A DNA stretch of 37,892 nucleotides from a virus. A program made the translations under genes and the position numbers. The stretch's first letter is position 1. The number at the start of each line of letters is the position of its first letter. Shown here piece by piece: positions 5,759-34,205 of the stretch. The stretch is taken from the IMG/VR virus record IMGVR_UViG_3300030106_008175, positions 1 through 37,892 of that record, one strand, 5' to 3'. The notes beneath the pieces are model-generated. The model saw only the letters and a list, made by a program, of their open reading frames with translations, did no database searches and was not told the origin of the DNA.

Positions 5759-5801
5759 CTAACTCACGGTTAGTTTATGCTGGGTTTGAAGGCAAGCCCA
5801 A
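5759..5801 (-). promoter_or_regulatory. Operator-like TAAC-N5-GTTA repeat and weak promoter before tail fibre
   Basis: CTAAC-TCACG-GTTAG at 5759-5773 is a 15-bp inverted repeat matching the other sites in this window. On the minus strand a weak TTGGGC-N18-TAAACT promoter (5801 to 5772) is possible, with the operator overlapping the -10 side. The gap between the internal protein and the tail fibre (5707-5815) holds nothing else evident. Confidence 0.5.
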
Positions 5802-5815
5802 GGAAGAACGCGCCG

Positions 5816-8212
5816 TTATTGGCCCGTCGCGTTCTCCAAATCGGGCGCGCGCCAGTCGAGGCCGCTGCCGGGCGGGGCGAAATACTCGGTCCCTTCGTTC
5901 TCCGCGCGGGTCATCCTGCGGCGGAATGCGTCATCGGCCTTGGGGTCCACCAGCTCGCGGATATTGTCGCTCACCAGGCGTTCCCACGCCAGGCGGGTCA
6001 TCCACAGGTTGCGTCCCGGCACTTCGCGTTCCAGCGTCGTCGCCGTATCCTTGATGAACTGGGTTTCTTCGCCGCGCGCAGCCTTCATCGCGTTACCGGC
6101 CGTCGCGTCCCACAGGTTCGGAATCGCCTGCCCCAGCAGCGGTCCCGCCAGGGTGGCGACCAGACCGCCGCCATAGCTGTTTTCGCTGTTGTACAGCAGG
6201 TCGCCGAACAGGCCGAGCCCGCCCGACTGCACCACCGCCTTGATCGCGAATTCGGGAGTGTTCATCGGCTGCGGATCTTTGCCTGCCGCCAGCATCTTGA
6301 GCTGCGCGGAAAGCGCGCCCAGCGCGGTCATCGTCAGGCCGAACCCGATCGCGTAGCGCGCCTTGTTCCACGCGCCCGGCTGATCGAGCATCCGCCGCCC
6401 ATGCAGGTTCCACATCGCCATGGGGAAGCTCTTGAACAGCAGCGTGCTGCGCATGATTTCGCCCATCAGCGTGCCCGGCTTCATGTAGGAATTCATCTGC
6501 ACGCGGGTGCGGATGTCGGGCATGATGATCGCGTAATCGGTTTCGCGCAGCACCATTTCCAGCATCCGGTCGCCCGCTCGGCCTGCATCGGTCGGCATGA
6601 TCCAGTCCGCCCCGCGCTCCTGCCGCACCGGCGTGGCACGATAGGCGTCCCAGTCCGCTTCGCCGATGCCGTTGTTCCGCATCACCCGCTGAATTCCCGG
6701 CTCCAGCTCGCCGAAGGCGCGTCCGCGCATTTCGGTCAAATGGCTGAGGAACTGCATTCCGAACGCCCACTGGCCGTTGCGGGTGTGACGGGCGAGGCCT
6801 TGCCCCCGGATCACCGCGTCGGCCAGCCTGCGCGAAATCTCGCCGGTCAATTCCTCCCCGGTGTAGCGTGCGGCGCTGCTGGAAAGGCCGATCCAGTCAT
6901 CGGTGACCAGGCCTAGCCGCACCGCCAGCGCGCGATCTTCGCCGCTCGCCCACAGGTTCATGTAACGGCCCATGGTCTTCATCACGGGCAGGTCGTTGTA
7001 TCCCGCCGTGATCAGCAAGGTGCCGTAATCGTTCACGGCGGAAAGCATGGCGCTGCCCAGCTTCGCCGCGACCTGCTGACTGCGCAGCGCGGAAAAGCCC
7101 AGCGCAAGGCGTTCGTCGCCCGCGATCTTGTTGCCCCCGGTCAACTCGTCGTAGGTCGCCTGCATCCGATCGAGCGTGCCGACGATCTTCTGTCGGTCCC
7201 GCTTGGCCCCGTCCATCCCGGCGCTCTTCTCGATCCAGTCCTTCTGATATCGGATCGTGGCGGCGGGGTTCGGCCCCATTTCCTCCATCAGCGCGGTGTC
7301 ACGGGCCATGCGTTGCAGGTGGCCGGAAATGATGTCGTAGATCGAATCGCCCGCACCGAAGGCGCGCTGGTACGTCATCCAGTCGTCGAAATTGGCGAAG
7401 TGGATCACGCGCGGGTCGCGCCCGCGATTGGCCAGCGCCCCGGCAAATTGCGCACCGGGCTTCGTCTTGCTGGCTCCATCGCTGCGGATGGTCTCGTAGG
7501 CTGCGCGCAAAATCTCTTCCTTGCGCAGCCCGGTGGCATATTCGCCCGTTTCGGTGTCGCGCACGCGCGCATTCTCGATCGAGGGATGCGCGCGCCACTG
7601 GTCGAAAGGCACGGCGCGCACCGCCTCGCTGTCGTGGCGCTGCGGCAGGCCGTAACTGTCCAGCTTGCCGATCGCGCCGCCCGCCGCGTTGAACCGCTGG
7701 CGCGCGGTCTCGAACACGGTCTGGATCGAATCGGCCATTTCGCGCGCGTTGAGGTCGCCGGTCTTTTCGCCGAACAGCTCGCGCCCCACATTCTCCAGAT
7801 CGCTCTTGTGGCGCACTTCGCCCACCAGGTTGCGGCGGTGCTTGCGCAGCAGGTCGTCCAGTGTGGAGAAATAGCGGCCCCGGATGGCGTCGATCTTCTT
7901 GTCGAGCATTTCCAGCCACACCCGCGCCGCTTCGCCATCCAGCGGGCCATCTGCCGCCGCCATGCGCTGCGCATCGAGCCAGCGTCCCTGTGCCTGCATC
8001 TGGAGAAGGGCACGGCGCTTCTTCAGCAGGCTGTCGCGCTCCAGCATCTTCAATGCGGTTTCGGTCGCCTGCGCTTCGGCCACCGGGCGGCTCATGCCTT
8101 CGCGCTCGTACTGCTCGCGCAGCTGGTCGTACCGGCGCTGCAATTCGGCGGCGCGCTCGGGCGGAACCTTGTTCTGCGCGATCAGGTCGGGGATGCAGAC
8201 ACCTAGCGACAT
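5816..8212 (-). CDS. Large internal virion / ejection protein
   Basis: The protein has 798 residues. The N-terminal third is strongly helical and charged (Arg/Glu/Gln rich, about residues 15-150). The C-terminal half contains amphipathic and hydrophobic stretches (for example about 610-640 and 665-700) that could insert into membrane. No enzymatic motif was recognised. Its place between the transglycosylase-bearing virion protein and the tail fibre corresponds to the C-terminal portion of T7 gp16, which forms the ejection channel with gp14 and gp15. I infer that the gp16 function is divided between two genes here. The start at 8212 follows GGGAG at about eleven bases. A terminator lies just upstream (8243-8267), separating it from the previous gene. 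Confidence 0.65.
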   Translation of the reverse strand: MSLGVCIPDLIAQNKVPPERAAELQRRYDQLREQYEREGMSRPVAEAQATETALKMLERDSLLKKRRALLQMQAQGRWLDAQRMAAADGPLDGEAARVWLEMLDKKIDAIRGRYFSTLDDLLRKHRRNLVGEVRHKSDLENVGRELFGEKTGDLNAREMADSIQTVFETARQRFNAAGGAIGKLDSYGLPQRHDSEAVRAVPFDQWRAHPSIENARVRDTETGEYATGLRKEEILRAAYETIRSDGASKTKPGAQFAGALANRGRDPRVIHFANFDDWMTYQRAFGAGDSIYDIISGHLQRMARDTALMEEMGPNPAATIRYQKDWIEKSAGMDGAKRDRQKIVGTLDRMQATYDELTGGNKIAGDERLALGFSALRSQQVAAKLGSAMLSAVNDYGTLLITAGYNDLPVMKTMGRYMNLWASGEDRALAVRLGLVTDDWIGLSSSAARYTGEELTGEISRRLADAVIRGQGLARHTRNGQWAFGMQFLSHLTEMRGRAFGELEPGIQRVMRNNGIGEADWDAYRATPVRQERGADWIMPTDAGRAGDRMLEMVLRETDYAIIMPDIRTRVQMNSYMKPGTLMGEIMRSTLLFKSFPMAMWNLHGRRMLDQPGAWNKARYAIGFGLTMTALGALSAQLKMLAAGKDPQPMNTPEFAIKAVVQSGGLGLFGDLLYNSENSYGGGLVATLAGPLLGQAIPNLWDATAGNAMKAARGEETQFIKDTATTLEREVPGRNLWMTRLAWERLVSDNIRELVDPKADDAFRRRMTRAENEGTEYFAPPGSGLDWRAPDLENATGQ

Positions 8213-8242
8213 GTTAAGATTTGCTCCCTCATTTGAGGTCGA

Positions 8243-8267
8243 GAAAATTAAACGGGCCAACGGCCCG
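8243..8267 (-). terminator. Rho-independent terminator between two internal virion protein genes
   Basis: On the minus strand CGGGCC-GTT-GGCCCG is followed by TTTAATTTTC, a classic intrinsic terminator. It lies in the 135-bp gap after the transglycosylase-bearing gene and before the 798-residue protein. A second hairpin with seven-base arms (GTCGCGC/GCGCGAC, 8309-8326) lies just upstream in the transcript. Confidence 0.8.
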
Positions 8268-8308
8268 CAAGGGCGACCGCCCGCCCGAGCTTATGCGAGG
8301 AAAGCCAA

Positions 8309-8326
8309 GTCGCGCGGATGCGCGAC
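8309..8326 (-). other. Short perfect hairpin in virion-gene gap
   Basis: Arms GTCGCGC and GCGCGAC enclose a four-base loop. It lies between the end of the transglycosylase-bearing gene and the terminator at 8243-8267. It may help transcript stability or termination. Confidence 0.4.
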
Positions 8327-8347
8327 GCCCGGCGCTTGAGGGCGCAA

Positions 8348-11300
8348 TCACAAGCAATCCTTCACGGTCTGGAGAAATGCCGCGTCCGCGTCGAACTCGG
8401 CCAGCAGGTCGGCCCCGCTGATGGCATCGCCTTCTTCTTCGAGGCGGAACGTGGGCTGGTCGGCAGCGTCGAACAGGCCAAGCCCCATCGTTCCGTCCTG
8501 CGCTTGGCCGGTACGGTTCTCACCGCGCATGGGGGCATCGGCACGCAGCTGCGTTTCCTGCGCCTGCCGTGCCTGCGCCTGCGGGTCGGCTTCTGCGCCG
8601 CGATCGAGTACCGCCCGCGCGTCATGCTCCATGCTCTCGGTAGTGGTTTTCGCGGCGGGGCCTTCGGGATCGTCCCAGCCCTGCCAGCTTTCGGGGTCTA
8701 GCGGGCCGCTTTCTTCTGTGCCTGGGCGAGCGCGCGCATATTGCGCGCCACCCGCGCCGCGTCCGCCTGCAGCCCCTTCGACAGCGCCGAATCCGAAGAC
8801 ATCCGTTCCATCAACGAAATAGCCGTCGGCATCGGGGACGTACCCGGCTTCGTAGCGGAGCGCGTCGAAGCGCTGCTGCCATTCGTCGCCATATCTCGGG
8901 TCGAAGATGTCATAATCGCGACCATAATCCGCTTCCATGCTTTCGTCCACTGCGCGACGAAGCGTGTCCTCCATATCCTCGCGCACCATCTGCGCGATGA
9001 CGTGTTCGGGTGCCAGCCCTTCGCCATCCGCCCAGCGCCCGGCTGCGACGACCAGCATGTGTTCGGGCAGGTCGTCGGGGGCGAGGCCGTAATCCTCCCA
9101 CAGCTTGCGGAATGCCTTGACCTGCGGATTGTCGAATTCCTCGCGCGCGGCGGCGCGGCGGGCATCGGCGGCATTGTCGATCCGGGCGGGATAGATCTTG
9201 TCGCCGCGGCGAATCGTATCGTCCAGCATGGCGATGAATTCGGCTTCGGTCGGGCGCGGCGTCACTTCGGGCGGGCCGAAAAACCCTTCGTCGTGCAGGT
9301 CTTCGACCAGCTCGTCGAGGCCGCGCCCGCTCTTGCGCACCAGCGGCCCTGCGCCGGGGACGAAGTGCGATCCGATATTGCCGGTGTTGCGCAGGTCGTG
9401 TCCCTTGGGCGGGTTGTCCATCGTCGCATTGCGGGCACGCTGCGCAGCGCCGAACCCGTCTTCGGACAATCCGCCGCGCCGCGCGATTGCAGCCAGCAGG
9501 TCGTCTTCGCCGCGCAGGCTCGGGCGCGCGAAATTGCCGTCCCACACCCCGCCACGATCCGCCAGCACCTCGGCATCGGTCTGCCAGCGATAGCGGCCCT
9601 GCGCGTTCAGCACGCGCTTGCGTGCCTCGCGCGGGATTTTCATGCTGATTTCGCCGCGCTGCGCCAGCTCGGTCAGCGCCGCGCGAAGATCCGGCTCGGC
9701 AACATCGAGTTCGCGCGCAAGGCCCTCGATATCGTTCAGCGACCGGCCCTGCTTGGCGATCACCTCACGCAGCGGCGGGATCGCCGCCTGCACAGGCTCG
9801 GGCAACACAGCCGGTTCGATCGTGGGCACCTCGGCACTCGTCGGGGCTTCGACCTCGGCGAGCGGGCGGGGCAGGTCGTCGGGCGGCGCATCCGCACGCA
9901 CAGTTGCCGGGCCTCCCAGCTCTTCGTCCAGTCGGTCGAGTTGCGCGCGCGTATCCGCCAGCTCGCGATCGAGCGCGGCGAAGGGGTCGGCTTGCGGCTC
10001 CGCGCGCGTGCCGGCCGATACGGCGGGGCTGGACGCTCCACCCATCTTGCGGTGGGCCCATGCGACCACATCGCTGGCGGTCATCCCCCGCAGGAAGGGG
10101 TTGGCATCGACCACGCGCTGCCCCAGCACCCGCTCCACCGGAACGCCGGGGTCCGCGCGCAACAGGTCGAGCGCGCCCTTGCGCCCCGCGAAGTGCGCCA
10201 GATACAGGTTGCCCGCATCCGCTGCGTGCCCACCCTGTTGCAGCGCCCGCATATTGTCCGCCAACAAGTCGTCCATCAGCGTGTTCTGCAAACCGGTGTC
10301 GGTCTTCTTCGCGATGATCTGCGCGTCGGTCAGGCCCCGTGCGCCGTACCGGCGCTTGTAATAGGCCAGCCAGGTGCCATCGGTGAACTGGTACAGGCCC
10401 TTCGCGCTGCTGCGCGGATTGGCTGCCGTCGCCTTGCCGTTGCTTTCGACGACGCCGATCCGCGCCTTGACCGTCGCCATCGCATCGCCGGTAATCTGGG
10501 TCGCAATCGCGGTTCCACCGCGAAGGCGGGCACCGGGGCTGGGGCGCGTCTTCGGCACATAGGCCGGGGCACCGTCCATGATGCCCTGCATGGTTTCGGC
10601 CAGCATCGTGTTGTACGACGCCACGCCCGCACCATCGGGGACGAACGGATTGGCCGCTGCCACCTGCCCTTCGCGGCGCAACGCCGAAATCGCCCCGCGC
10701 TCCGCATCGGTCATCAGCTCGGACGGGATCAGGCCTTCGGCGATGTCGGGCAGATGATCGTCCAGCGCGGCCCAGTCGACCTTCGCGCCCACCTTCTCGC
10801 GCAGGCCCGGCGTGCGATCGAGGATCGTCGCCCACGCCTTTTCCTGCACGGCCTTGGGCGCACTGGCGATCTTTGCCCAGTGCTTCCCGCCGATCTCGAA
10901 CCCGCCGCGCAGCACGGCGGCACCGGCACCGGCGAACAGGATATTCTGCACCGATTCCTCGGTCGTCATCGCGTCACGCCCCAACGCAGCCCTTTGCCGG
11001 TTGATGCTCGGCTGCATCAGCCCTTCGACGCCCATGTTCACCGCCGCTTCGGTGACGACCTTGGCCAGAACGGTCTTCCCGAAGCCGCCCACCGGCAACG
11101 TCAGGAGGTTGAGGGGGTCGGTCATCGCGCCTGCGGTGCCCCCTGCGAATGCGGCCACGGGATTGCCGCGCGATGCAACCCGATCCGCCTTGGCGATCCG
11201 GTCGCGCTCGCGCGCCTGCCACTGTTCGTCGAACTGGTCGCGGCTGCGCGGCAGGCTCTTGAAATTGCCGCGCTGGCGCTGCTGCTCCATCGCCGCCCAC

Positions 11301-17800: not shown

Positions 17801-18790
17801 TCAGGTCGGCTTGCAGGCCACCTGGAAGCAGCGCTTCTCGTCGCGCCGCCCGTAACGGATGTTCGTGTAGGCGCTGAACTGCCACGGATCGCCGTCGAGG
17901 TCGGTACGCTGGCTGCGCTTGGTCAGCACCGTCAGCCATTCACGGCCCGCCATACCCTTGGGCACCCACACCGGGCACAGCTCGTTGCCGTTGGCATCGG
18001 TCGTCAGCCCCAGCTCGTTCGCCTCGGGGTACATTTTCGAGTTGGTGAATTCCTTGGGCACGAAGTGGAACCCGAGGAAGTCGGTCGGCATACCGTCCTG
18101 CAAAGCCTGCCGCGCCCCTTCGGACAGCGGACGACCGTAAACGCCCTGCATGATCTGGCTGTCGGGGTTGTATTCCCGGCGCACATATTCGTCGATGTCG
18201 AGCAAATCTTCGATCTGCTCCGCCGTGATCATCCAGTGCAGCTTCTCGACACGCGGGTCGATCAGCAACTGTCGCGCGCGCTTGCGCACGGTCTTCATCT
18301 TCGGCAGCGAAAGGCCCGTGGCAGTGCCGGGGCTTTCGAAGTCTGCCGCGATGATGTTCGCGCTGGAGAAGGGCACATACTGCGTACCTTCCTTGCCGGT
18401 CGCGGCGTCGGTGTAGAAACCGATCAGGAATTCGTCCTGCCGGGAAATCTGGATGCCCCGCGCGACACCTTCGGCGAGCGGGCTGTCGAGCGGAATTTCC
18501 GTCGCCATCTGGTCATCCATGTCCAGCGCGGTGTGGCAGGAAATCGATTCCTGCTTGTGAATCCACCGGCGCTCGACGACGTTGTCCTGCAGGTCCTTCT
18601 TGGCGAAGCGCGACGTCTTCTTCTTGCCCCGCAGGTTGCCGAAGCGGTCGGTAATCTCGGTCTTCTCGCCCGTGATCCCGCCCTTGAAGTCGCACATCGC
18701 TTCGAAGTCGGTGCCGATCTCGGCAAGCTGGAATTCGACCGCCTTTTCGAAGTTAACGGTGCGGGTCGTTTCGAGGTAATTGTCGGCCAT
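17801..18790 (-). CDS. Major capsid protein
   Basis: This 329-residue protein lies between scaffold and tail-tube genes. It shows features of an HK97-fold podovirus capsid protein: an N-terminal segment with VEFQLAEIGTDFEAM, a charged extended-loop region (GKKKTSRFAKKDLQDN), a helix with PKMKTVRKRARQLL (spine-like), and a C-terminal beta region. The start at 18790 has GGGAG seven bases upstream. It has its own upstream promoter with operator repeat (18996-19025), a leader with a large hairpin (18944-18990) and a terminator downstream. That layout would allow high, independently regulated expression. Confidence 0.85.
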   Translation of the reverse strand: MADNYLETTRTVNFEKAVEFQLAEIGTDFEAMCDFKGGITGEKTEITDRFGNLRGKKKTSRFAKKDLQDNVVERRWIHKQESISCHTALDMDDQMATEIPLDSPLAEGVARGIQISRQDEFLIGFYTDAATGKEGTQYVPFSSANIIAADFESPGTATGLSLPKMKTVRKRARQLLIDPRVEKLHWMITAEQIEDLLDIDEYVRREYNPDSQIMQGVYGRPLSEGARQALQDGMPTDFLGFHFVPKEFTNSKMYPEANELGLTTDANGNELCPVWVPKGMAGREWLTVLTKRSQRTDLDGDPWQFSAYTNIRYGRRDEKRCFQVACKPT

Positions 18791-18943
18791 GTCATCGCTC
18801 CCTGGCTCGAAAAACAAACAATTGGTTCGGTTTCCGAGCGGGGATGCAGGTTTCCCTGGGCCGCTCTTGCAGTCTTACGCTCCTGCCCGCGCGCTGGCTT
18901 TACAGCGATGCACCGGGGCCATCAGGCGATGGGGATGCCGGAT

Positions 18944-18995: not shown

Positions 18996-19025
18996 ATTAA
19001 TCTAACGACGGGTTAGATTTGTCAA
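18996..19025 (-). promoter_or_regulatory. Capsid promoter with operator in the spacer
   Basis: On the minus strand TTGACA (19025-19020, a perfect -35) is followed by 18 bases and ATTAAT (19001-18996). The spacer contains CTAAC-CCGTC-GTTAG (19016-19002); including flanks the arms reach eight bases (AATCTAAC/GTTAGATT, 18999-19019). A protein bound here should block RNA polymerase. The -35 overlaps the scaffold stop codon. Confidence 0.75.
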
Positions 19026-19909
19026 CCCTGCTGGCGCGCGCGATGCTGCGCGATCATCTTTTGCAGATAATCGCTCTCCCTCGCCTCGGGGCTGCCCTTC
19101 GTCTTCACCTTCTTGCGCCATTCGGCATCTTGCATCTTGGTATTCCAAGTCGCCTCGGCATTTTCAGGCGCAACGGCCTGGAACCCGGCGGGCGGATTGT
19201 CGCCTTCACCCGCATAGCCAAGATCGCCGACGCGATCGTGCAGGGCAAACATGAACTTCATCAGTCCATCGCTGCCCAGCTTGATGTCGAGCCGGTTCAG
19301 GTCCGCTTCGCCTAGCTCCAGCGGAGTGCCGGTGAACCCCTCGATCATCTTCTGGACCTCGCCCAGCTTTTCGTCGTAGCCGCTGCCATAATCGGCCTTG
19401 AAGCTGTCGAGCTGTTTCTGGCTCGCAGCATTCGCAGCCTCGATCTGCTTGTCCATCGCCCCGGCGTAGAAGTCCATCGCCCCCTTCGCGAGGTGGGGAG
19501 GCAACCCACTATCGAAGGCGAATTGGCGGAACCCGTCGACCATTTCGCTGTCCATACCTTCGGGCAATTCCCCGAAATCGTAGGCATCGACGCTTTCCGG
19601 CCGCAGAGCGTCGGCGAAGGCCTTGCGGCTTTCCTCGCTGTCGCCCGGCAGCGGAACAGCCTTGGCGCTGGCGGCGCGCTTGGTTTCGAGGTGCCCGCGC
19701 GCGAGGTCCTCCAGCGAGTTGTACTTACCCAGCGTGGCGTCGCCTCGCAGGTCTTCGGGCAATCCCGCGCGCCAATCCTGCGCCGCTGGCGGGGTCAGCG
19801 CGTCGGTTGCTGCCGGGGTCGGCGTAGGCGTAGGCGTCGGCGCCGGGGTTGCTGCGGGGGTCGGAGTGGGGGTGGGCGTCGGCGCGGGGGCCGGTGCGGC
19901 ATCGGTCAT
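19022..19909 (-). CDS. Scaffolding / capsid assembly protein
   Basis: This 295-residue acidic, helical protein sits directly upstream of the major capsid gene. The N-terminus (about residues 5-35) is a striking low-complexity run of Pro, Thr and Ala. The middle shows family-like segments such as WRAGLPEDLRGD and LPPHLAKGAMDFYA, and the C-terminal end is basic and helical (WRKKVKTKGS to the end), which scaffolds use to bind capsid. It acts in procapsid assembly. The ATG at 19909 has AGGGAACC upstream. The Pro-Thr repeat could vary in length by slippage. Confidence 0.8.
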   Translation of the reverse strand: MTDAAPAPAPTPTPTPTPAATPAPTPTPTPTPAATDALTPPAAQDWRAGLPEDLRGDATLGKYNSLEDLARGHLETKRAASAKAVPLPGDSEESRKAFADALRPESVDAYDFGELPEGMDSEMVDGFRQFAFDSGLPPHLAKGAMDFYAGAMDKQIEAANAASQKQLDSFKADYGSGYDEKLGEVQKMIEGFTGTPLELGEADLNRLDIKLGSDGLMKFMFALHDRVGDLGYAGEGDNPPAGFQAVAPENAEATWNTKMQDAEWRKKVKTKGSPEARESDYLQKMIAQHRARQQG

Positions 19910-20255: not shown

Positions 20256-21909
20256 TGCCGCTCACTCCCGCTGCGCCCAGGTCTTTGGCGATACCCGCCA
20301 CCGCTGCGCCCGTTTCCAGCAGGTCCTGCGCGTTCTGGCGCTGCGCGGCGGCATCGTCCGCCGCCTTCAATTCCGCTTCGGTCGCCTGCCACGCGGCAGG
20401 CACCCGCAGCACGCGGGCAAGGTTCGGCATCACCTTGGCAGCCGGGAACATGCGGTTGAATTCCTGCATCCACGTCGGGTCGTATTGCGCCTGCGTGGCG
20501 ACCGCCTGCGACATGCGGAAATAGCCTGCGGCCTCCTCGCTCATCAGCGCGGCATTCAGCGGGTTGTCGTAAGTGATCGCGCGCGCGCCGCCCGCCTCGA
20601 TCACTTCGCCGGGCATATCGTCGAACTCGCCCATCTGGCCCATCAGGTCGATTTCGCGGTCGAGCATCGGGCTCAACCACTCGGTTTCCTGCGTGGCCAG
20701 CGGTTGCAGCAGCACGCCCTTCTCCTGCACCCGCTCCATGATCTGCGCGTCGGTGACATGGCTTTTCATGTCCTGCGTCAGGAACAGCAGGTGGCGGAAA
20801 AACGCGCGGTCTATCGCTTCGTGCAACTGCGCCTGGATCGCCAGCGGGCCTTGGAAATCGCCTACGTCGAACAGCTTGCCGATCACCTGATTGCCGGAAT
20901 AGTTGAACGCGCCGGGCACGAACTCGCCAGCGCCGTAATTGATGATCATGTCCAGCGCGTCGTCGGGTCCGCCCAGCGGGGGCATCAGCCCCATTTCCGC
21001 GCCGGTCATCAGATCCACCATGATCTGTTGCAGCGCCTTCGCCTCGGGCAGCATGTCGACGCCGGGGCCGCGCCCGTAATCCTCGCTCGGGCTGCGCATG
21101 AACGCGGAATAGGTCAGCTCGCGGCTGTTCCAGCCACCCTGTTCGATCCATTCCTTGTCGGCCAGCGAGATATAGCCGCCGATGTAGGGCTTGCCCTTCA
21201 TGTCCATCCGCTCGGGATCGACGTTCGGGTTTTCCAGCGCCACCAGCAGGAAATCGAACTCGGTGTGCTTCTTCTCGCTGTTGGTCGCCGCTTCCAGAAC
21301 CTGCGGCGCGCGTTGCAGCTTTTCGCGGCCCCAGCGCTCCAGCGCCTGCTCGGCGGTCCACGTCCACTTGCGATGCGTGCGCCCTTGCAGACCCTGCCAG
21401 TTGCGCTCGATGTAGCAGCGCCCGATATGCTCGCTGCGATATCGCAGGCCGATGGGCCGTTTCGTGCGCTTGTCGATCCGGTGCGTCACCGACATGCCCT
21501 GATTGCCAAAAGCCATCAGGCTGGCCCAGCTCTCATCGGTCTGTTGCACGAAGCCGCTGTTCGGATCGTGCCGCAGCTCGAACAGGCGGCGCGTCTTCGC
21601 TTCGTACCAGGCGGCGACGTGCTGCAATTTCAGCAATTCGTCGTGGTCGGGCGGGGCGATTCCCTGAAACAGCGCGCCGCGCGGCATCACCATGCCCACC
21701 GCGATGCTCTTGCCATCGTCCAGCGCACGGGCGGGATAGCTATCGAAGATTTCGCGCGTGCGCGGCACGCCCTGCGTCGAATTCTGCCCGCTGAAGTCGG
21801 CCTGCCGGGGCAGGAAATACTGGGCCGCTTCGGTCCATTCGGCTTCGAACGGGCTGCGCGCATTGTGCATCCGTTCCTGCGCCTTGATCTGAGTGGCGAC
21901 GTCCAGCAT
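20248..21909 (-). CDS. Portal protein (head-tail connector, T7 gp8-like)
   Basis: This 553-residue protein matches the podovirus head-tail connector family (PF12236). Early residues LDVATQIKAQERMHNAR and WTEAAQYFLPRQ, an RALDDGKSIAVGMV segment, and the middle region around YGRGPGVDMLPEAKAL are typical. It forms the dodecameric channel through which DNA is packed and ejected and binds TerL and tail tube A. Its length is close to T7 gp8 (536). ATG 21909 lies after AGGGAACAGGAA. It lies between the 266-residue protein and the scaffold. Confidence 0.93.
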   Translation of the reverse strand: MLDVATQIKAQERMHNARSPFEAEWTEAAQYFLPRQADFSGQNSTQGVPRTREIFDSYPARALDDGKSIAVGMVMPRGALFQGIAPPDHDELLKLQHVAAWYEAKTRRLFELRHDPNSGFVQQTDESWASLMAFGNQGMSVTHRIDKRTKRPIGLRYRSEHIGRCYIERNWQGLQGRTHRKWTWTAEQALERWGREKLQRAPQVLEAATNSEKKHTEFDFLLVALENPNVDPERMDMKGKPYIGGYISLADKEWIEQGGWNSRELTYSAFMRSPSEDYGRGPGVDMLPEAKALQQIMVDLMTGAEMGLMPPLGGPDDALDMIINYGAGEFVPGAFNYSGNQVIGKLFDVGDFQGPLAIQAQLHEAIDRAFFRHLLFLTQDMKSHVTDAQIMERVQEKGVLLQPLATQETEWLSPMLDREIDLMGQMGEFDDMPGEVIEAGGARAITYDNPLNAALMSEEAAGYFRMSQAVATQAQYDPTWMQEFNRMFPAAKVMPNLARVLRVPAAWQATEAELKAADDAAAQRQNAQDLLETGAAVAGIAKDLGAAGVSGNA

Positions 21910-24802: not shown

Positions 24803-25475
24803 CGGCGCCCCTCTCCGCATCCTTGGCGTCGTCCCCATCTACCTCGGCGAATTCGGCATCTTCGACCAGCTTCATGCCCTCGAAATCGAGCGCCGCGAGC
24901 CCGTGCTTGTCGATCGCGGCGGAAAGGTCTTCGTGCGAAACATCGGTCGGGGCGTTGATCCCCGGAATGATCAGCACCGCGTCCTTCTTCTCGGCAATTT
25001 CGATGCTCGTTGGCTGGCGACCGTGGACATAGGTGAAGGCGTCGACGAAGATCTTGCGCCACCACTCGGCGACTTCCATCGCGCCCACTTCCTTGCGGCT
25101 CATGTACGCCATCAGCTTGCGGTAGAGCTTCGCCGCTTCCTTGTCGGAACAGTGCGCGGCGAGCCGGTCGACCAGCCTTTCGAGCCGATCCAGCTCACCA
25201 CTTCTGTCGCCCTGGTCTGCCTGCCGGATCGTCGCCACCAGCACTTCCAGCGGCGTGGTGATGATATTCCCGGCAATGTCGATCGGGTCGCCGTACTGGT
25301 GGACAAAATACCGCGCGACCTTCTCGGTGCGCTTGTTGCGCGCGCCCGGCGGTCGCCCTTGACCGCGCGCCTTGGCGAGGCCGCTGGCGGAAATCTCGCC
25401 TTCCTCGGCATGGATCAGCGTCAGTTGCTGCGGCGAAGGCAGAAACGAATGCTGGCGGGGCGCGTCAGTTGACAC
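24795..25475 (-). CDS. Terminase small subunit candidate
   Basis: This 226-residue, mostly helical protein begins the packaging block next to the large terminase. It has a basic stretch GRPPGARNKRTEKV (residues about 40-53), a DNA-binding-like element common at the N-terminal side of such proteins, and a helix-rich middle with a 'YRKLMAYMSRKEV' segment. The C-terminal end is acidic. The assignment rests on these features and gene order. It begins with GTG 25475 after a GGGGG run; no better start is seen. The upstream region lacks a gene for about 1.2 kb. Confidence 0.7.
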   Translation of the reverse strand: MSTDAPRQHSFLPSPQQLTLIHAEEGEISASGLAKARGQGRPPGARNKRTEKVARYFVHQYGDPIDIAGNIITTPLEVLVATIRQADQGDRSGELDRLERLVDRLAAHCSDKEAAKLYRKLMAYMSRKEVGAMEVAEWWRKIFVDAFTYVHGRQPTSIEIAEKKDAVLIIPGINAPTDVSHEDLSAAIDKHGLAALDFEGMKLVEDAEFAEVDGDDAKDAERGADG

Positions 25476-25934
25476 GATTCACCCCCGATCCTAGCCTCGC
25501 GAGCTTCTTCCTCCATCCTGGGTGAGCCGGAATTGTCATCCCCCGACCCGATTTTTGACCTCCCAAGGCGCGATTTTCGCGGAAACCTGCGCTTTTCGGG
25601 TTGAGGTTCCGCGCGCAGCACAGCGCAGCGCTCCCCCCGACCCCCTGTGTGCCCGTGAGCCATTCGCGATTTTTTCGAACGTCGAAGGCCTTCAAGCCTG
25701 ATTGGGGCGGGATCGAGCCTGCCCGGCGCGCGATGCGCTTTGCCGATCGTCCCTGCCGCGCGGAACCCGGATAGAGATGGCGGACGGCCCCCCGGTGGGG
25801 GGCTCGCCCCCCCTCGGCGCAGCGCGTGGGAGCCGCCTGCGGGCCGCGTGCGGTCGATGTCGGCGCGCCAGTCGCAAAACTGGCAATTTGCCGACCACCT
25901 TGCGCAAGGCCCTGATTTTCCAGCGCTATCGCCA

Positions 25935-25962
25935 GCGATGCAACACCCTGCGATGCAACACC
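25935..25962. repeat. Tandem 13-bp direct repeat
   Basis: GCGATGCAACACC occurs twice in a row, with starts 15 bases apart (25935 and 25950). The linker is CT. It lies in the gene-free region beside the small terminase gene and could be a protein-binding iteron, for example for terminase. Confidence 0.6.
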
Positions 25963-26177
25963 GCCCACGCCGACACCGCTAAGTGCCTGATTTTGCGTGC
26001 TGCGCGGGATCCGTCGCGACCGGCCCAGCTCGAACCCGACCTGGCCGATCCGCGCGCCGTTTTCACCAGCCAGCGCCCCGCCCCCCGCCCGCTGAACACG
26101 GGTCGAGCGGCAGCAAGCCCAATTCCGGGCACCTATTTTATTCGGCAAGGGCGAAATGCGCTCGATCACAGCGCAGG

Positions 26178-26207
26178 GACATAACGCAAAGTTAGAAATA
26201 GGCGCAA
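26178..26207 (-). promoter_or_regulatory. Operator-like repeat with weak minus-strand promoter
   Basis: TAAC-GCAAA-GTTA (26182-26194) matches the operator-like family. On the minus strand TTGCGC (26207-26202) and TATGTC (26183-26178) flank it with an 18-base spacer, a weak promoter that would point toward the terminase genes about 700 bases away. Confidence 0.45.
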
Positions 26208-26220
26208 GCCCCGCTCTCAA

Positions 26221-26642: not shown

Positions 26643-26672
26643 TTGACACTAAAAACTAACTCTCGGTAAAGA
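26643..26672 (+). promoter_or_regulatory. Accessory-cassette promoter with degenerate operator
   Basis: TTGACA (26643-26648, perfect -35), an 18-base spacer and TAAAGA (26667-26672) form a plus-strand promoter. The spacer holds CTAAC-TCTCG-GTAA (26656-26669), one base away from the operator consensus TAAC-N5-GTTA. The first gene starts about 45 bases downstream of the -10. Confidence 0.65.
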
Positions 26673-26696
26673 AATCGTGCCACGACGAGGTGGCGG

Positions 26697-27030: not shown

Positions 27031-27035
27031 GAAAA

Positions 27036-27209: not shown

Positions 27210-27211
27210 AC

Positions 27212-27925: not shown

Positions 27926-27928
27926 GCG

Positions 27929-28564: not shown

Positions 28565-28659
28565 ACAATCGCCTCCAAATTGGAACAAAAAAAGAACTTT
28601 CCTACACGCGCCGCGCGCTCCAGTTTGCGAATCCCACCAATCTGGAGAGAGAAAAGGCC

Positions 28660-28875
28660 ATGTTGAACCACCTTGCGCAGGCCCGCGACGAAGCCAACGC
28701 CGAATACGATCAGACCATGGCGATGGCCGCGCTGGAGGCGCTTGAATTGCTCTTCGTGCAGGCCTCGCCCGGCACCGAAATCCCGGCCACCAACATCGCG
28801 GCGCTGCTGCACTTCGTTCATCGCCCGGTGCGTGACGCCTTCCTTTACGTCACCGGCGCGGCCAACGATCGCTAG
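28660..28875 (+). CDS. Small helical hypothetical protein
   Basis: This 71-residue, mostly helical protein has the segment MAMAALEALELLFVQASPG. It has no Cys and no signal peptide. ATG 28660 is preferred because GGAGAGAGAAAAGG lies just upstream. An earlier in-frame ATG at 28561 overlaps the previous stop (ATGA) but has no ribosome site, and its extra residues (Lys/Arg-rich) do not look conserved. The stretch 28565-28659 may hold a weak promoter. The stop overlaps the end of the convergent methyltransferase gene by four bases. Confidence 0.55.
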   Translation: MLNHLAQARDEANAEYDQTMAMAALEALELLFVQASPGTEIPATNIAALLHFVHRPVRDAFLYVTGAANDR

Positions 28876-29489
28876 AGCAATCGAGGCTGGCCCGCTCGCG
28901 CTGCTTCTCCGCGCTCCACTGGCAGGTGGAACCGGATCGGCGGGGGCGGGCCTTCGCGCGGGGTGGCGTCGAACCTGTACCATGCGCAGTCGTCGGCCGG
29001 ATCGTACTTGCTGCCTTCGAACCACTTGAGCCGCCCCACGGCCACCACATCGGTCAGGATCGGCCGGAACGGTGCCGCTTGCTGCGTATAGGCCCAGCTC
29101 GCATCGTGGAGGCTCCACAGCGGCGCTATCGCAGCCAGGTGCCATATCAGCGGATGCAGCCAGCTCCGTTCCCACGGCAGGTTGCTGATGAACAGGGTGG
29201 CCCCGTGAAGATCCCGCACGGTCAGCGACAGCGCATTGCCGATGCCGATAGGCCAGCGGTTCGCAAGGCCCTCGCTCTGCGGCTCCAGCTCCAACCCCCA
29301 TTCGCAGACGAGGCCCGCGGCTTCGAGCAGGTGGATAAGATCGCCCGCCCCGGCGCACGGCTCGGCAAAGCGCGTGCCTGCCGGCACATGCGCCAGCAAC
29401 GGCGCGACACAGCGCGGGTCGATGGTCGGATAGAAGAAATTGCGCTTGCGCGGGCGCTGGGTGCCCATCGCCTGCCCTAAGCGGCTCAT
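28872..29489 (-). CDS. Class I SAM-dependent methyltransferase, DNA adenine type likely
   Basis: The protein has 205 residues. Motif I is FAEPCAGAGDL (residues 41-51, SAM-binding). The catalytic-type motif is SNLPW (102-106), in the place of the DPPY/NPPW box of N6-adenine DNA methyltransferases, but with Leu instead of the first Pro. C-terminal residues include a WFEGSKYDPADDCAWYRF segment and Pro-rich tail. Such phage enzymes modify the phage DNA to resist host restriction. It lies convergent to the accessory cassette. The start at 29489 has AAGG ten bases upstream; ATG 29468 is an alternative. Confidence 0.75.
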   Translation of the reverse strand: MSRLGQAMGTQRPRKRNFFYPTIDPRCVAPLLAHVPAGTRFAEPCAGAGDLIHLLEAAGLVCEWGLELEPQSEGLANRWPIGIGNALSLTVRDLHGATLFISNLPWERSWLHPLIWHLAAIAPLWSLHDASWAYTQQAAPFRPILTDVVAVGRLKWFEGSKYDPADDCAWYRFDATPREGPPPPIRFHLPVERGEAARAGQPRLL

Positions 29490-29542
29490 GCCCGCGCTAC
29501 CTTGACCCGTTCCACGTCTGTTCTAATGGGCAACGAGTGCCT

Positions 29543-29797
29543 ATGCGCCATGTCAACTGTCCAGCTCACGTGGCTACGGTCACGCTGATGATCGAACGCG
29601 GCATCAAGGTTCGTACTTGGTGCACGCATTGCCATGCGCCTTTCAGGCAGGTCGATCTTGCCGAGGTGGCGCGGGTCAAGGGCCCTGACTATTCTCTGTG
29701 GGGTCGCTGGACGCGCTGCAAGCTCACGCCCGGCTGTCGGGGGCGCAATCGCTTCTTTCATGACGGCAGGGGCCATTACACGGGTATGTGGGACTAG
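29543..29797 (+). CDS. Small Cys-rich protein, zinc ribbon-like
   Basis: This 84-residue basic protein has CTHCHAPF and a second Cys pair (RCKLTPGC), the spacing of a zinc ribbon. It contains many aromatic and Arg residues. A DNA- or RNA-binding role is possible. It is alone on the plus strand and ends five bases before the stop of the Lar-like gene. TTGACC-N16-TAATGG (29502-29529) could be its promoter, which would place the RNA start close to the first codon. GTG 29537 is an alternative start. Confidence 0.55.
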   Translation: MRHVNCPAHVATVTLMIERGIKVRTWCTHCHAPFRQVDLAEVARVKGPDYSLWGRWTRCKLTPGCRGRNRFFHDGRGHYTGMWD

Positions 29798-29802
29798 GAC
29801 GC

Positions 29803-30048
29803 TCACAACCCCTCCGATTCCACCGTCAGGTATTCTTTGCCGACACGCGCTTGCCACGGCTCGTTCCACGCCTCGGTAGCGGTCTTAGGCGTTGGGCGGC
29901 ACTTGCCGATGGTGCCGCACGCACATTCCATCCGGTACATACGATGCACGCCCGTCTTGCGCGGCGTGTTGTAATAAACCTCGATCGCGCGGAGCGCAGG
30001 CGTTTCTACGCAATAGTGACAGGCGATAGGTTCCGGCTTCTCGCTCAC
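29803..30048 (-). CDS. Lar-like zinc protein
   Basis: This 81-residue protein has the pattern of Lar/restriction-alleviation-like zinc domains: ACHYC near the N-terminus, MECACGTIGKC in the middle, and then PTPKTATEAWNEPW, which corresponds to the family's 'T..EA...WN' ending. Lar proteins of Rac prophage modulate type I restriction, while most family members are uncharacterised. It starts with GTG 30048 overlapping the helicase stop by four bases (GTGA), making it the last gene of the replication operon. The family resemblance is clear, function is inferred. Confidence 0.7.
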   Translation of the reverse strand: MSEKPEPIACHYCVETPALRAIEVYYNTPRKTGVHRMYRMECACGTIGKCRPTPKTATEAWNEPWQARVGKEYLTVESEGL

Positions 30049-31973
30049 CCTGCTTCCCCCGGCATGAACATGCTCAGCGGCAGCGCCACGACGTATTCGG
30101 GGCTGCCCACCTTCTCGAATCGCATCTTGGTGCGGATCGCGCCTTCGGCCTTGGCCAGGCTCTGCACCCACTGCCCGCTGGCGAAGTCGCCCGGTGCGCC
30201 CCGGAACAGCTCTTGCAGGCCCTTGTGCCCCCCGCCTGCCACCGCAAGATAACCGTCGCGCCATGCCTGTTCGCCGTGGCCCAGCTCGTTGACGCCATAG
30301 CGCGCCCGCCCCTTCTCGTCGGGCGCCAATTCCTTGGGCAGAAACACGCGCAGGCCGTAGGTTTTCAGCCGGTCGCGCGCCGCTTCGTCGATGCAGATGA
30401 TTTCACGCTCGCCATCCCACTTCAGGCCCGGCTCCACCGCCTTGCGCAGCCAGCGCGCCACGCTTTCGGGCGGCTGCCCGCCAGCGCCCGGCACCAGCGC
30501 GGAGAGCAGGTACTGGATGCAACGCTCGGTATCGGTGCGCGCTTCCTCGGTCCCCCGCATCATCAGCGGTTCGATCAGCCGCACCCATGCCGCGCCGCCC
30601 ACGTCCTCGCCTTCCTCGCGGTCGAAATTCTCCGGGTTCAGCGGGTCGAGACGTTGGGCCGGGGCATAATCGAACAGCAGCAGGTCCGCACAGGCCAGCA
30701 GGGTGCCGAAGGTGTCGCGCCAGCGCCCGGCATAGCCCGCCGCGTGAATCTCGCCCTTGTAGTAATCCAGCGTGGCGTCGAACCGATGCCACTGATCCAG
30801 CATCCGCCGATGCAACCGCCGTCCCAGTCCGCGAAGATGGGGAAGGTCAAGCCGAAGGTCAGCCTTGTCGCTGGGGATGGGCCGCATGTCGAGGATGGCG
30901 AACCTGTTGTGATCCTGCCCCACCTTGATCGAGTGGATGATGCTGGACAGCACGAAGGCGCTGTGAATGGTAAAATCCTGCGCCTTGTGGTCGCTGCCGC
31001 CGCGCCCGATGCTGCCCCCGCTGCTCCCTTTGCGCGCCAGCGTCAGCATCGCCTGTTGCCGCTCTGCGTCGTCGTCCGCCTCGGCTTCGTCGATCAGCAC
31101 TGCCAAGCGATCGAGGCCCAGCTTCTGCCGGATATAGGCGGGGCTCGCGTCCTCGGTCGTAATCGCCCAGTCGCTCGCCAGCGCACGCAGCAGCTTTTGC
31201 AGGTGGCTCTTGCCCGCTGCGGTCGATCCGGTCAGCCAGATATGGGCGCGCCAGTTCAGCGCGCCGCAAATATACATCTGGCCGACCCAGCCCAGCAGCA
31301 GCAGCCGCGCCAGCTCGGGCGCGATCCAACTCCATTCGCCGAACAGGTCCATCAGCTCGCGCGACTCTTCGCAGGTCGCGGCGCTGCCAAGGTCGGGCAG
31401 GGGCAGCGGCGGGCCACCGGGATAGAACGCCCCCTGATACTCGCCCGCCTTCGCGCCTTGCAGCTTTTTCAGCCGCCGACCGCGATTGTCGGGCACGTTG
31501 GCCAGCAGCAGACGGTTGCCACAATGCAGCAGCAGCAGGTCTTCATCGTGCCGGGGCCGGTGCGCCCCGCGCCCAAACACGCGCCCCTCGGGGTTGAAGA
31601 TGCCCTTGGTAAAGCACGCCTCGGCCAGCTCGCCGCCCGCTTCGCCATGATCGAAGCCGACCTGCACGCGCGGCACCTGATCTTTCTTGTCCTTCTCGCT
31701 CTGCTTGGCGTAGCGCGGGAAATTCTCCCACAGCCAGTCCTGCCCGCCGCAGTGCAGAACGAAATCATTGTTCGACAGCCGCGTGTCGCGCTCTTGCAGC
31801 ACGTTGTTGCGGTCCATGAACACGATCCGGCTGCCACCGATCGCCTGCCCCAGCGGCACGATCGGCGAATCGGGCAACAGGAACTTGTTGACCTCCGCAT
31901 CATGGCTCTGGCCGGGCGCTTCATCCTCGCCCGCAAGATCGGGCAGGGTAACGGGATCGGGGAGAGTGCTCAT
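30045..31973 (-). CDS. AAA-type replicative ATPase / helicase-like protein
   Basis: This 642-residue protein has Walker A GSTAAGKS (residues 249-256) and Walker B AVLIDEAEAD (291-300), with an arginine-finger candidate further on (around RFAILDMR). Residues 1-200 form a distinct, beta-rich domain with FVLHCGGQDW. The C-terminal third is helical and DNA-binding-like. Together with the primase just upstream it probably loads or acts as the replicative helicase, similar in plan to phage primase-helicase modules but split into genes. It overlaps the small upstream protein by four bases (ATGA). Confidence 0.75.
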   Translation of the reverse strand: MSTLPDPVTLPDLAGEDEAPGQSHDAEVNKFLLPDSPIVPLGQAIGGSRIVFMDRNNVLQERDTRLSNNDFVLHCGGQDWLWENFPRYAKQSEKDKKDQVPRVQVGFDHGEAGGELAEACFTKGIFNPEGRVFGRGAHRPRHDEDLLLLHCGNRLLLANVPDNRGRRLKKLQGAKAGEYQGAFYPGGPPLPLPDLGSAATCEESRELMDLFGEWSWIAPELARLLLLGWVGQMYICGALNWRAHIWLTGSTAAGKSHLQKLLRALASDWAITTEDASPAYIRQKLGLDRLAVLIDEAEADDDAERQQAMLTLARKGSSGGSIGRGGSDHKAQDFTIHSAFVLSSIIHSIKVGQDHNRFAILDMRPIPSDKADLRLDLPHLRGLGRRLHRRMLDQWHRFDATLDYYKGEIHAAGYAGRWRDTFGTLLACADLLLFDYAPAQRLDPLNPENFDREEGEDVGGAAWVRLIEPLMMRGTEEARTDTERCIQYLLSALVPGAGGQPPESVARWLRKAVEPGLKWDGEREIICIDEAARDRLKTYGLRVFLPKELAPDEKGRARYGVNELGHGEQAWRDGYLAVAGGGHKGLQELFRGAPGDFASGQWVQSLAKAEGAIRTKMRFEKVGSPEYVVALPLSMFMPGEAG

Positions 31974-32209
31974 CGCCGCCCCCGCCAGCTATCGGCGCGC
32001 TGTTCCATCGAACTGGGGACCTCGCTGAGGTCGATCTTGATCCTTGGCATTCTTGCAGGTGCCTGCGCTTTCGTTGGTGCCGATGGAGTGGGCTGCGGTG
32101 GCGGGGTGGGGAGGGGAGGAGCGGGCCGCTCTGCGCGGCGCCGCTCTTTCGCGGCTTCGCGCTCGTAGTCTTTCCAGCTCCATGCCGGGCGAGGCTTGCG
32201 ATTGCTCAC
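31970..32209 (-). CDS. Small Pro-rich linker protein between primase and helicase
   Basis: This 79-residue protein begins with GTG 32209, overlapping the primase stop (GTGA), and its stop overlaps the helicase start (ATGA). It has a basic helix (WKDYEREAAKERRR), a Pro/Thr/Ala linker (about residues 29-50) and an acidic C-terminal part (IKIDLSEVP). No family was recognised. Such disordered bridging proteins could couple primase and helicase. The coupling of both overlaps and the composition favour a real gene. Confidence 0.65.
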   Translation of the reverse strand: MSNRKPRPAWSWKDYEREAAKERRRAERPAPPLPTPPPQPTPSAPTKAQAPARMPRIKIDLSEVPSSMEQRADSWRGRR

Positions 32210-33327
32210 GCCGCCACCCCCCGCATCTTGCGCTCGCGCAATTCGGCAAAGTCCTTCACGTCCTGCGGGGGCCAGATCGCTTGCACCAGGCGCTTGCCCC
32301 GGTTGCGCTCCTGCAACTTGGTTACCGCCTTTTCGAAGCTTTCCGCGCCGCCGCTTCCTTCGGGGTCGTTCTGCGCGATGATCACGATGTTGCCCGCTTG
32401 CTCGGGCACCTCCAGCGCACCGATATTGCCGACATCGCCCGCAGCCACGATGCGCAGACTCGGGTCTTCCATCGCCACCGCACCGCCATCCTCGATCCCT
32501 TCGCTGACGTAGATGTCCGTTCCTGCCGGGATGGCGTGCAGCGGCACGTCGTAGCGCCCCTTCCACACCGGGATATGCGCGCCCTTCTTGGCCCCCAGCA
32601 TCATCTTCGCCTTGTGCAGCACACGCCGCGCGTGCTTGGCGCTCGCCTCTTCGTCCTCGATCGCCAGTTTCTGCCACCGGCTCACGCCGGATGTGTCGGG
32701 CCGATATTGCAGGAAGGTGCGATGCACCGCCGTGATGCTGCGCAGGTCGGGGCCGATCATGCAGCTGACCATTGCGGGGAGTTCGCGCTTGAGGTCGCCA
32801 TGCGGCACATCGCCCCGGTATTTCAGCGCGCCCGGCCAGTGTCCCAGCGATCCGAAGTCGATCCCGCGCCCGCGCAGGTAATCGTCGGCGGGCGTTTCCG
32901 CGCCCGTCATGCACGAATACCAAAGGCCTTGCGCACTCTTGCGCCGCTCAGCGGCATCCGCCGCCGCCTTCGCCTCGCGCCGCTCCAGCAGCTCGCGGTC
33001 GGCCTCACGCTGTTTCAGGTTCATGCCCGCGATCCCGGCATCCTGCTCCAGCATCCGCAGCGCTTCGCCGAACGGCAGCTTCTGATGATCCATCAGGAAG
33101 TCCATCGCATCGCCGTGCGCCTGACAGCCGAAGCAATGGTAGAAACCCTTGTCGTCGTTGACCGTGAAGCTGGGCGTGCTTTCGGTGTGGAACGGGCACA
33201 GGCCGAACCAGTCGGGGCCCTTCTGCGTCAGCTTCACCACGCGCCCGATCAACGTCGAGAGTTTCACCCTCGCGCGTATCGAATCCATCTTCTGCCGTAG
33301 ATCCGGCTGCGACCCCGCACCGCTCAT
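32206..33327 (-). CDS. CHC2 zinc-finger DNA primase with Toprim domain
   Basis: This 373-residue protein has a CHC2 zinc finger with C44, H47, C65 and C68 (LCPFHTES ... FYHCFGCQAHGD). Its Toprim-like core has VSEGIED (274-280, catalytic-type Glu). The second Toprim motif is IIAQNDPEG (around 316-324). The usual first Asp of 'DxD' is replaced by Gln there. It synthesises primers for phage replication and leads the minus-strand operon with the helicase-like ATPase. The short length suggests a compact phage primase lacking the DnaB-binding domain. ATG 33327 is the start. Confidence 0.88.
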   Translation of the reverse strand: MSGAGSQPDLRQKMDSIRARVKLSTLIGRVVKLTQKGPDWFGLCPFHTESTPSFTVNDDKGFYHCFGCQAHGDAMDFLMDHQKLPFGEALRMLEQDAGIAGMNLKQREADRELLERREAKAAADAAERRKSAQGLWYSCMTGAETPADDYLRGRGIDFGSLGHWPGALKYRGDVPHGDLKRELPAMVSCMIGPDLRSITAVHRTFLQYRPDTSGVSRWQKLAIEDEEASAKHARRVLHKAKMMLGAKKGAHIPVWKGRYDVPLHAIPAGTDIYVSEGIEDGGAVAMEDPSLRIVAAGDVGNIGALEVPEQAGNIVIIAQNDPEGSGGAESFEKAVTKLQERNRGKRLVQAIWPPQDVKDFAELRERKMRGVAA

Positions 33328-33331
33328 TGCG

Positions 33332-33607
33332 TCAGCCCGTCACGTCTGCGGATTGCAGCGCTTCGTCGACGACGGGGGCGGGCAAATGCCAGTCGTTCGG
33401 GCCGCAAACCTCCAGATCGTTGAGCTTCGAAATATTGCCGTGACGCGGCACTTTCTTGCCTGTTTCCCAAAAATGCACCGCAGGCTGCGTCACGCCGAAC
33501 AGCGTAGCGGCCTGCGTCAGCGTCAAACCTTCGCGCTGCCGCCACGCGCGCAGCTTTACAGCGCCGAGAGAGAGGGTCGGGGGGGATTGGTTGTCGGTCG
33601 CGATCAT
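33332..33607 (-). CDS. Cro-like HTH protein
   Basis: This 91-residue protein has an XRE-type helix-turn-helix (residues about 20-60: REGLTLTQAATLFGVTQPAVHFWETGK). It resembles small Cro/YdaS-like regulators. It is divergent from the CI-like repressor at 33701 and faces the operator at 33635-33647. It probably competes with it in the lysis-lysogeny decision and is first in the replication operon, ending four bases before the primase start. ATG 33607 is chosen because AAGGG lies seven bases upstream; a longer start at 33664 would extend through the promoter and operator. Confidence 0.75.
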   Translation of the reverse strand: MIATDNQSPPTLSLGAVKLRAWRQREGLTLTQAATLFGVTQPAVHFWETGKKVPRHGNISKLNDLEVCGPNDWHLPAPVVDEALQSADVTG

Positions 33608-33700
33608 GCCTTGGCCCTTGCTTTCGATATGGCCTAACTCTAGGTTATATTGATTGCAAGCCACCCGGCAACGTAATTAACAAAAGGGGATATACCCGCC
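33608..33700. promoter_or_regulatory. Divergent switch region with operator
   Basis: TAAC-TCTAG-GTTA (33635-33647) lies between two divergent XRE genes. On the minus strand TTGCCG (33671-33666), 16 bases and TATAAC (33649-33644, five of six consensus bases) form a promoter whose -10 overlaps the operator. On the plus strand TTTCGA-N18-TATATT (33622-33651) is a weaker promoter toward the repressor, also over the operator. One protein bound here could shut one or both. Confidence 0.65.
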
Positions 33701-34135
33701 ATGACAGCCGAAGTGTACCTGTTCCCCGGTATGACCAAGCAGTTAGAAACCTATCCCAACCGCATTCGCGAATTGCGCCTTGCTGCGGGCCTCACCCAGC
33801 AGCAGCTCGGCGACAAGGTCGGTATGACGGCGGTGAACATCGGGCATCTCGAACTGGGCCGTCGCGATGCCAGCATGAAGGCGCTCCAGGCGATCGCGCG
33901 CGAACTCCACGTTGCTACCGCTGCGCTGCTTTCCGCCGAAGACAATCCGCTCAACGCCACGCCCGAAGGTCGCCAGCTCGCGATCGACTGGGAGGCGGCG
34001 GGCGACGAAGGCCGGCACGCCATCGCGCGCGTTGCCGAAAGCTTCACGCGCTACCGGCCCGAACGGTCGCAGCCACGCCTTGTCGAAGACATGGATCGCG
34101 ACGACGATGGAGAAGTCTCGCCTAACGCAGCGTAA
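33701..34135 (+). CDS. CI-like XRE repressor
   Basis: This 144-residue protein has an XRE-type HTH at about residues 20-75 (NRIRELRLAAGLTQQQLGDKVGMTAVNIGHLELGRRD). An acidic C-terminal part with no peptidase motif follows, so it resembles short CI-like repressors that are not RecA-cleaved. It is divergent from the Cro-like gene. The operator-like repeat family of this window (TAAC-N5-GTTA) is the obvious candidate target, inferred from position. AGGGG lies eleven bases before ATG 33701; ATG 33731 is an alternative. A degenerate operator copy (TAAC-GCAGC-GTAA) overlaps its stop codon. Confidence 0.8.
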   Translation: MTAEVYLFPGMTKQLETYPNRIRELRLAAGLTQQQLGDKVGMTAVNIGHLELGRRDASMKALQAIARELHVATAALLSAEDNPLNATPEGRQLAIDWEAAGDEGRHAIARVAESFTRYRPERSQPRLVEDMDRDDDGEVSPNAA

Positions 34136-34176
34136 GGTCGAATATTTCCGGCAACAAACTCTCCGTTATTTTTCTC

Positions 34177-34205
34177 TTGCGCTCCATATAACCTAGGGTT
34201 ATTTC
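34177..34205 (+). promoter_or_regulatory. Early operon promoter with operator-like repeat
   Basis: TTGCGC (34177-34182), 17 bases and TATTTC (34200-34205) form a weak plus-strand promoter. Its spacer and -10 hold ATAAC-CTAGG-GTTAT (34188-34202), a 15-bp inverted repeat of the same family. The first gene of the plus-strand early operon starts at 34232. Confidence 0.55.

Follow-up and report, generated by a model that had tools for sequence, protein, structure and literature searches.

Candidate palindromic operators at early and late promoters of a sphingomonad prophage, with lineage-specific versions in its relatives

Introduction

Among the best-known prophage repressors the silencing of late genes is indirect, and the operators of lambda CI act at early promoters only. 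The stretch of DNA analysed here (the window; the whole 37,892 bp of IMG/VR record IMGVR_UViG_3300030106_008175, G+C 64.9 %) carries copies of the inverted repeat TAAC-N5-GTTA beside both early and late genes, which raises the question of whether a single phage repressor might silence both classes directly.

Profile and family searches of the window identified tail-tube-type tail proteins, a head-tail adaptor, a terminase, a major head protein, a primase, a helicase/primase-like protein and an endolysin, and its closest named relatives are Sphingomonas prophages. The overlapping contig G001 (L159) shows identity to the window over 29 kb and runs 5.2 kb beyond its end (L159 1–5176, joining at window position 37892), where an integrase is encoded (2007–3371, minus strand; phrog_1, E 7e-20) with host-like genes adjoining it. 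The frames beyond the integrase, as we read their translations, presumably correspond to a host TonB-dependent receptor and a PepSY protein. Since the integrase adjoins host-like genes, the phage is regarded as temperate, and since the contig continues through the integrase into host-like frames, the window record is regarded as an incomplete prophage. The window thus represents a temperate podovirus of sphingomonads, apparently integrated. A separate stretch of 232 bp (36483–36714) shares 82 % identity with the much larger Erythrobacter phage XM05 (152 kb), which may be taken as a hint of the host.

The operator family in the window

Five perfect copies of TAAC-N5-GTTA are present in the window (Table 1), all where the first-pass annotation had placed them, together with the degenerate TAAC-N5-GTAA copy that it had listed. 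This is the most over-represented family among the window's 4-mer inverted repeats with spacers of 0–13 (Poisson p ~6e-11), and dinucleotide shuffles yielded a mean of 0.02 copies and a maximum of 1. The excess over chance claimed earlier is thus upheld, although the expectation of 0.15 copies then given, which assumed about 63 % G+C, was too high. The copies had also been described as entirely intergenic, and all five do fall in gene gaps and in sequence scored as non-coding, dispersed over the genome; the R1 site overlaps only a GTG-extended reading frame whose likely ATG start is at 33607, and a long frame with a TTG start (25465–26220), for which there is no family match, includes the R3-late site in its 5' part. 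When one mismatch is allowed, 11 sites are found, only two of which (8204 and 23268) lie clearly within genes, so that copies inside genes, which would have spoken against an operator family, are not common. Three one-mismatch copies had escaped the first-pass annotation, namely one at 5806 and two which form a 33-bp ladder with the R2 operator, the outer of these overlapping the final codons of XRE1.

For comparison among phages, five syntenic regions were set by homologues of window genes, the regions themselves being drawn from the finding in the window. R1 is the gap that separates XRE1 from XRE2, R2 precedes the 34232 operon, R3 lies between the helicase/primase and terminase genes, R4 is upstream of the major head gene, and R5 is between the 5816–8260 gene and the tail-fibre gene.

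Table 1. Regulators, candidate operators and associated features of the window
Feature	Position	Strand	Basis and remarks
XRE1, 144 aa, HTH_3 regulator, proposed immunity repressor	33701..34135	+	Pfam HTH_3 E 2.4e-11; homologues at same place in relatives
XRE2, 91 aa from ATG 33607, Cro-like divergent regulator, heads early primase operon	33332..33607	-	HTH_3/HTH_31 above cut-off; same position in relatives
Operator R1, TAACTCTAGGTTA, XRE1/XRE2 gap	33635..33647	.	Perfect copy; -35-like TTGCAA 12 nt upstream on minus strand
Operator R2, TAACCTAGGGTTA, promoter of 34232 operon	34189..34201	.	Perfect copy; TTGCGC 12 nt upstream
R2-ladder operator, one mismatch	34156..34168	.	Pattern scan; 33 bp upstream of 34189
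R2-ladder operator, one mismatch, overlaps XRE1 end	34123..34135	.	Pattern scan; 66 bp upstream of 34189
Operator R3-accessory, TAACTCTCGGTAA, behind TTGACA (26643–26648) of rightward accessory cassette	26657..26669	.	Pattern scan, promoter alignment
Operator R3-late, TAACGCAAAGTTA, terminase side, behind TTGCGC (26202–26207, minus)	26182..26194	.	Perfect copy, promoter alignment
Operator R4, TAACGACGGGTTA, in -35/-10 spacer of major-capsid promoter	19003..19015	.	Perfect copy, promoter alignment
Capsid promoter: TTGACA 19020–19025, candidate -10 ATTAAT 18996–19001, spacer 18	18996..19025	-	Promoter alignment
Major head protein gene, downstream of R4 operator	17801..18817	-	phrog_3437 E 6e-20
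Operator R5, TAACTCACGGTTA, between 5816–8260 virion gene and tail-fibre gene, no clear promoter	5760..5772	.	Perfect copy; synteny

Promoter context and the divergent regulators

Site-by-site alignment placed -35-like hexamers 8–13 nt upstream of most R1, R2, R3-late and R4 sites, while the looser pattern TTG[AC] at 7–13 nt is expected at a fraction of 0.03–0.045 of random positions. The same alignment revealed neither a -35-like hexamer nor a convincing -35/-10 pair at R5 in any lineage that has an R5 site. The earlier proposal that the sites cover promoters therefore holds for most of them and is doubtful at the tail-fibre gap, where the site may instead be a roadblock.

The early switch resembles those of the CI/Cro type in several respects. 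Two divergent HTH_3-class regulators flank a gap with a palindromic operator, the same motif is found at the other early operon (34123, 34156 and 34189), and the phage is temperate and integrating, as indicated by the integrase on the overlapping contig. XRE1 matches HTH_3 and PHROG repressor families and not recombinases; in the Pfam search only its HTH part was matched, with no S24 peptidase match. Its recognition helix is common to phages that have a common operator (L023 and G028; G011 and G015), and that of XRE2 likewise tracks the operators.

Operators among the relatives

A five-mer regional statistic with random-region controls ranked the motif of the window at the top, but its power was too low in the relatives; the operator of each relative was therefore defined from R1/R2 and its whole genome then scanned. 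A scan of the collection for TTGACA-N4-TAAC-N5-GTTA proved unspecific and was dropped. Inverted repeats rich in G+C, and a small GCAGA-N3 family in L026, probably reflect coding background and were not retained.

Among the relatives scanned, more than a stray perfect TAAC-N5-GTTA copy was found only in the near-identical G001 and in G002, a fragment of it, which were excluded from the assessment of conservation because such contigs carry no variation; G015 has one perfect copy, in its tail-fibre gap. The relatives encode the same divergent XRE pair with operators that differ from that of the window: TTAGC-N5-GCTAA, TTMAGC-N5-GCTKAA, TTTTCRC-N5-GYGAAAA, TAAAC-N5-GTTTA, GTAAAC-N5-GTAGAC and ATGTRYC-N5-GRYACAT. 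Every lineage has a version of its own at the matching promoters, namely the divergent switch, the next early operon and usually the terminase side and the accessory cassette, including an R3 site pair about 475–540 bp apart, and in most of the closest relatives this version is also present in the major-capsid promoter, where it separates TTGAC from the -10. Conservation, which the first-pass annotation had proposed to look for, is thus one of position with lineage-specific sequence.

In G013 and G014 (TTAGC-N5-GCTAA) all sites with at most one mismatch fall in R1–R5. The early and late pattern is repeated in three groups fetched later by capsid similarity, as were G044 and G045: G041 (TTMAGC-N5-GCTKAA), G043/G042 (TTTTCRC-N5-GYGAAAA) and G039/G040 (TAAAC-N5-GTTTA), the last having late sites with one half degraded. 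In S. tagetis the pattern GTARAC-N5-GTAR, trimmed after inspection, gives five sites, all in R1–R4, and a weaker one in R5; with the untrimmed pattern the R4 site has three mismatches, and no equally good site is found outside the R regions in 41 kb. A direct-repeat reading of this operator was dropped, since the sister phage G039 favours an imperfect N5 palindrome. G015 and G011 carry ATGTRYC-N5-GRYACAT in R1–R3, and TTTTCCATYTGATACATT, with one half-site kept, is common to R4 of both and R5 of G015. At the late sites of G015, G011 and G039 only one half is well preserved, and reading them as operators is a matter of interpretation. The tail-fibre-gap site recurs at the syntenic position in G013, G014, G042, S. 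tagetis and G039.

The location of the capsid-promoter site is significant over four lineages besides the window (G013, S. tagetis, G041 and G043; Fisher p 7e-4); for G039 the R4 location alone is not (p 0.25). In all five of these phages the site starts 7–11 nt past TTGAC, a placement whose background rate is about 0.0025 for each. In G015 the best operator match in R4 is not behind TTGAC, but its half-site is.

By genome scan, G044 and G045 keep operators at R1–R3 with no clear R4 site, and the outgroups L023, G028, G022 and S. trueperi have them at R1/R2 only, with no late sites; the same holds for G017 if one-mismatch copies elsewhere are disregarded. For G009, G010, G016, G020, G021, G024, G026 and G046 no operator could be defined. 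The earlier claim of one operator family at early and late promoters thus extends to the capsid promoters of G013/G014, G041, G043/G042 and S. tagetis and, in degraded or half form, to those of G039 and G015/G011, whereas the set is not universal and more distant relatives have it at the early switch only. In midpoint-rooted FastTree trees of concatenated proteins the late-operator phages group together, with G044 and G045 beside G013/G014, which fits an ancestral operator set with later loss, among other possible histories.

At the second early operon, pairs 33–35 bp apart occur in most relatives with a defined operator; pairs at 32–35 bp are found in the window (34123–34201), L023 (3298/3331), G022 (7654/7687), G028 (7226/7259, oriented) and G041 (442/477). 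A pairing of about three helical turns is kept despite differing half-sites and spacers (N5 or N7), which suggests conserved cooperative binding. Separately, other palindromes lie in R4 upstream of the capsid gene in G003 (TCGGTTGTCTGAAAGACAACCGA, oriented 19248–19270) and in G020 and G026 (TTATTGCCTATGGCAATAA, 20783–20801 and 21484–21502, respectively). They match no operator at the early switch of these phages and possibly belong to a different late regulator.

Proposed mechanism and alternatives

The sites, their excess over chance, their conserved positions, the way they diverge together across lineages and their location directly behind the TTGAC of the capsid promoter, all read from the sequence, make it probable that they serve as operators for an immunity repressor which the phage itself encodes, most likely XRE1, and which would silence early and late genes directly. 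The binder, repression upon binding and the sequence of lytic events are steps that we infer. XRE1 would occupy the N5-spaced palindrome as a dimer, and the Cro-like XRE2 may use these sites too. The position of the operators between the -35 and -10 indicates polymerase occlusion, by which the bound repressor would block promoters used by the host polymerase. These would be the promoters of the two early operons and the accessory cassette as well as those of the terminase side and the major capsid gene; prophage late genes would in this way be kept off directly and not only via an early gene. At the tail-fibre gap the bound site would probably add a block to transcription. The XRE1 recognition helix common to operator-sharing phages favours this explanation. 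Points against it are the weak -10 boxes, the missing promoter at R5, the XRE2 helices that follow the operators as well, the want of a clear R4 site in G044 and G045 and of late sites in the outgroups, and the single good half left at the late sites of G015, G011 and G039.

More broadly, and with about even confidence, it is proposed that in this sphingomonad podovirus clade a single XRE repressor dimer represses early and capsid promoters directly, without a dedicated late activator being needed for prophage silence, and that the whole operator set was rewritten together in several lineages as repressor specificity changed. No database match in the window suggests a late activator, and several late-strand genes have no match of any kind.

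It appears unlikely that XRE2 is instead the main binder at the late sites, being made early in lytic growth, lowering the early promoters and delaying the late ones. XRE2 does head the early operon and its recognition helix matches between operator-sharing phages, but the helices of XRE1 track the operators equally, so the comparison does not separate the two proteins. By analogy with CI/Cro both would share sites, which does not single out XRE2. Preference is given to XRE1 since its production is expected in the lysogen, where XRE2 is not expected while the prophage is quiet.

That the late-region sites are stoperators, at which bound repressor halts polymerase already elongating into a late operon, seems quite unlikely. 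The R5 site would suit such a role, since in every lineage that has it the flanking genes run in the same direction and no promoter is recognisable between them, as with the stoperators of Cluster A phages (PMC9262239). However, nearly all R1, R2, R3-late and R4 sites follow a -35-like hexamer at a distance that argues for an effect on initiation, and they are symmetric, whereas L5 sites are asymmetric and orientation-dependent (PMC9283540).

Activation of the late promoters from these sites, which the weak -10 boxes there might favour, is very improbable, as the sites fall within the spacer and also cover early promoters, which a lysogen has to keep off. XRE-class activators as a rule bind upstream of the -35. 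That the sites belong to a host regulator, or are chance repeats favoured by gaps that are A+T-richer than genes, has a negligible probability given the shuffles and the co-divergence at conserved positions across phages, and was rejected on the comparative data.

Relation to known immunity systems

Phage P1 C1 is a further case of dispersed operators. In the Cluster A mycobacteriophages L5, Bxb1 and TipsytheTRex the immunity repressor binds short dispersed sites that lie mostly between genes, and among relatives the site motif varies together with the repressor (PMC6550527, PMC9262239); the window and its relatives show the same two features. The L5-type sites number more than 20, are asymmetric, are bound by a monomer and act mostly on elongation in one orientation (PMC9283540), whereas the window has about eight palindromic sites, mostly behind -35 hexamers and including the capsid promoter. 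The sites are palindromic in most relatives too. The master repressor MrpR of SPbeta resembles the proposed repressor in acting at dispersed promoter sites, about ten 15-bp elements termed SPBRE; it has a tyrosine-recombinase fold, unlike the HTH_3 match of XRE1, and its reported targets are mostly genes of unknown function, with no capsid promoter seen among those named (PMC10516654).

The divergent XRE pair, the operator in the gap and a further group of operators at the other early operon recall the CI/Cro systems of lambda, P22 and 434. Unlike in lambda, the family also reaches late promoters, and a further difference from lambda-type switches is that XRE1, of 144 aa, matched Pfam through its HTH part alone. 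Podoviruses of the BcepC6B and MT835534 type also have a divergent XRE switch, along with homologues of the tail and repressor genes, although the GTAAC-N7-GTTAC of MT835534 is confined to the early switch, and in BcepC6B no such operator set was found. Searches of open-access literature gave no description of a prophage XRE repressor with an operator in a capsid promoter; subscription papers fell mostly outside this scope, and the negative is therefore weak evidence of novelty. These comparisons suggest a variant of dispersed-operator immunity set apart by palindromic sites in the capsid promoter. A compact, mostly symmetric operator set that spans early and late promoters and has been rewritten as a whole in about seven operator lineages offers a natural data set on how a repressor changes specificity when many sites must change too, as well as a testable case of direct late-gene silencing.

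Other repeats in the window

Two further repeats were observed within genes of the window. A 34-nt direct repeat (37112–37145 and 37361–37394; 91 % identity, 249 bp apart) lies within the 36721–37776 reading frame, and degenerate short repeats of the GGCGTAGGCGTA type occupy 19791–19886, inside the gene (19022–19909) that precedes the capsid gene.
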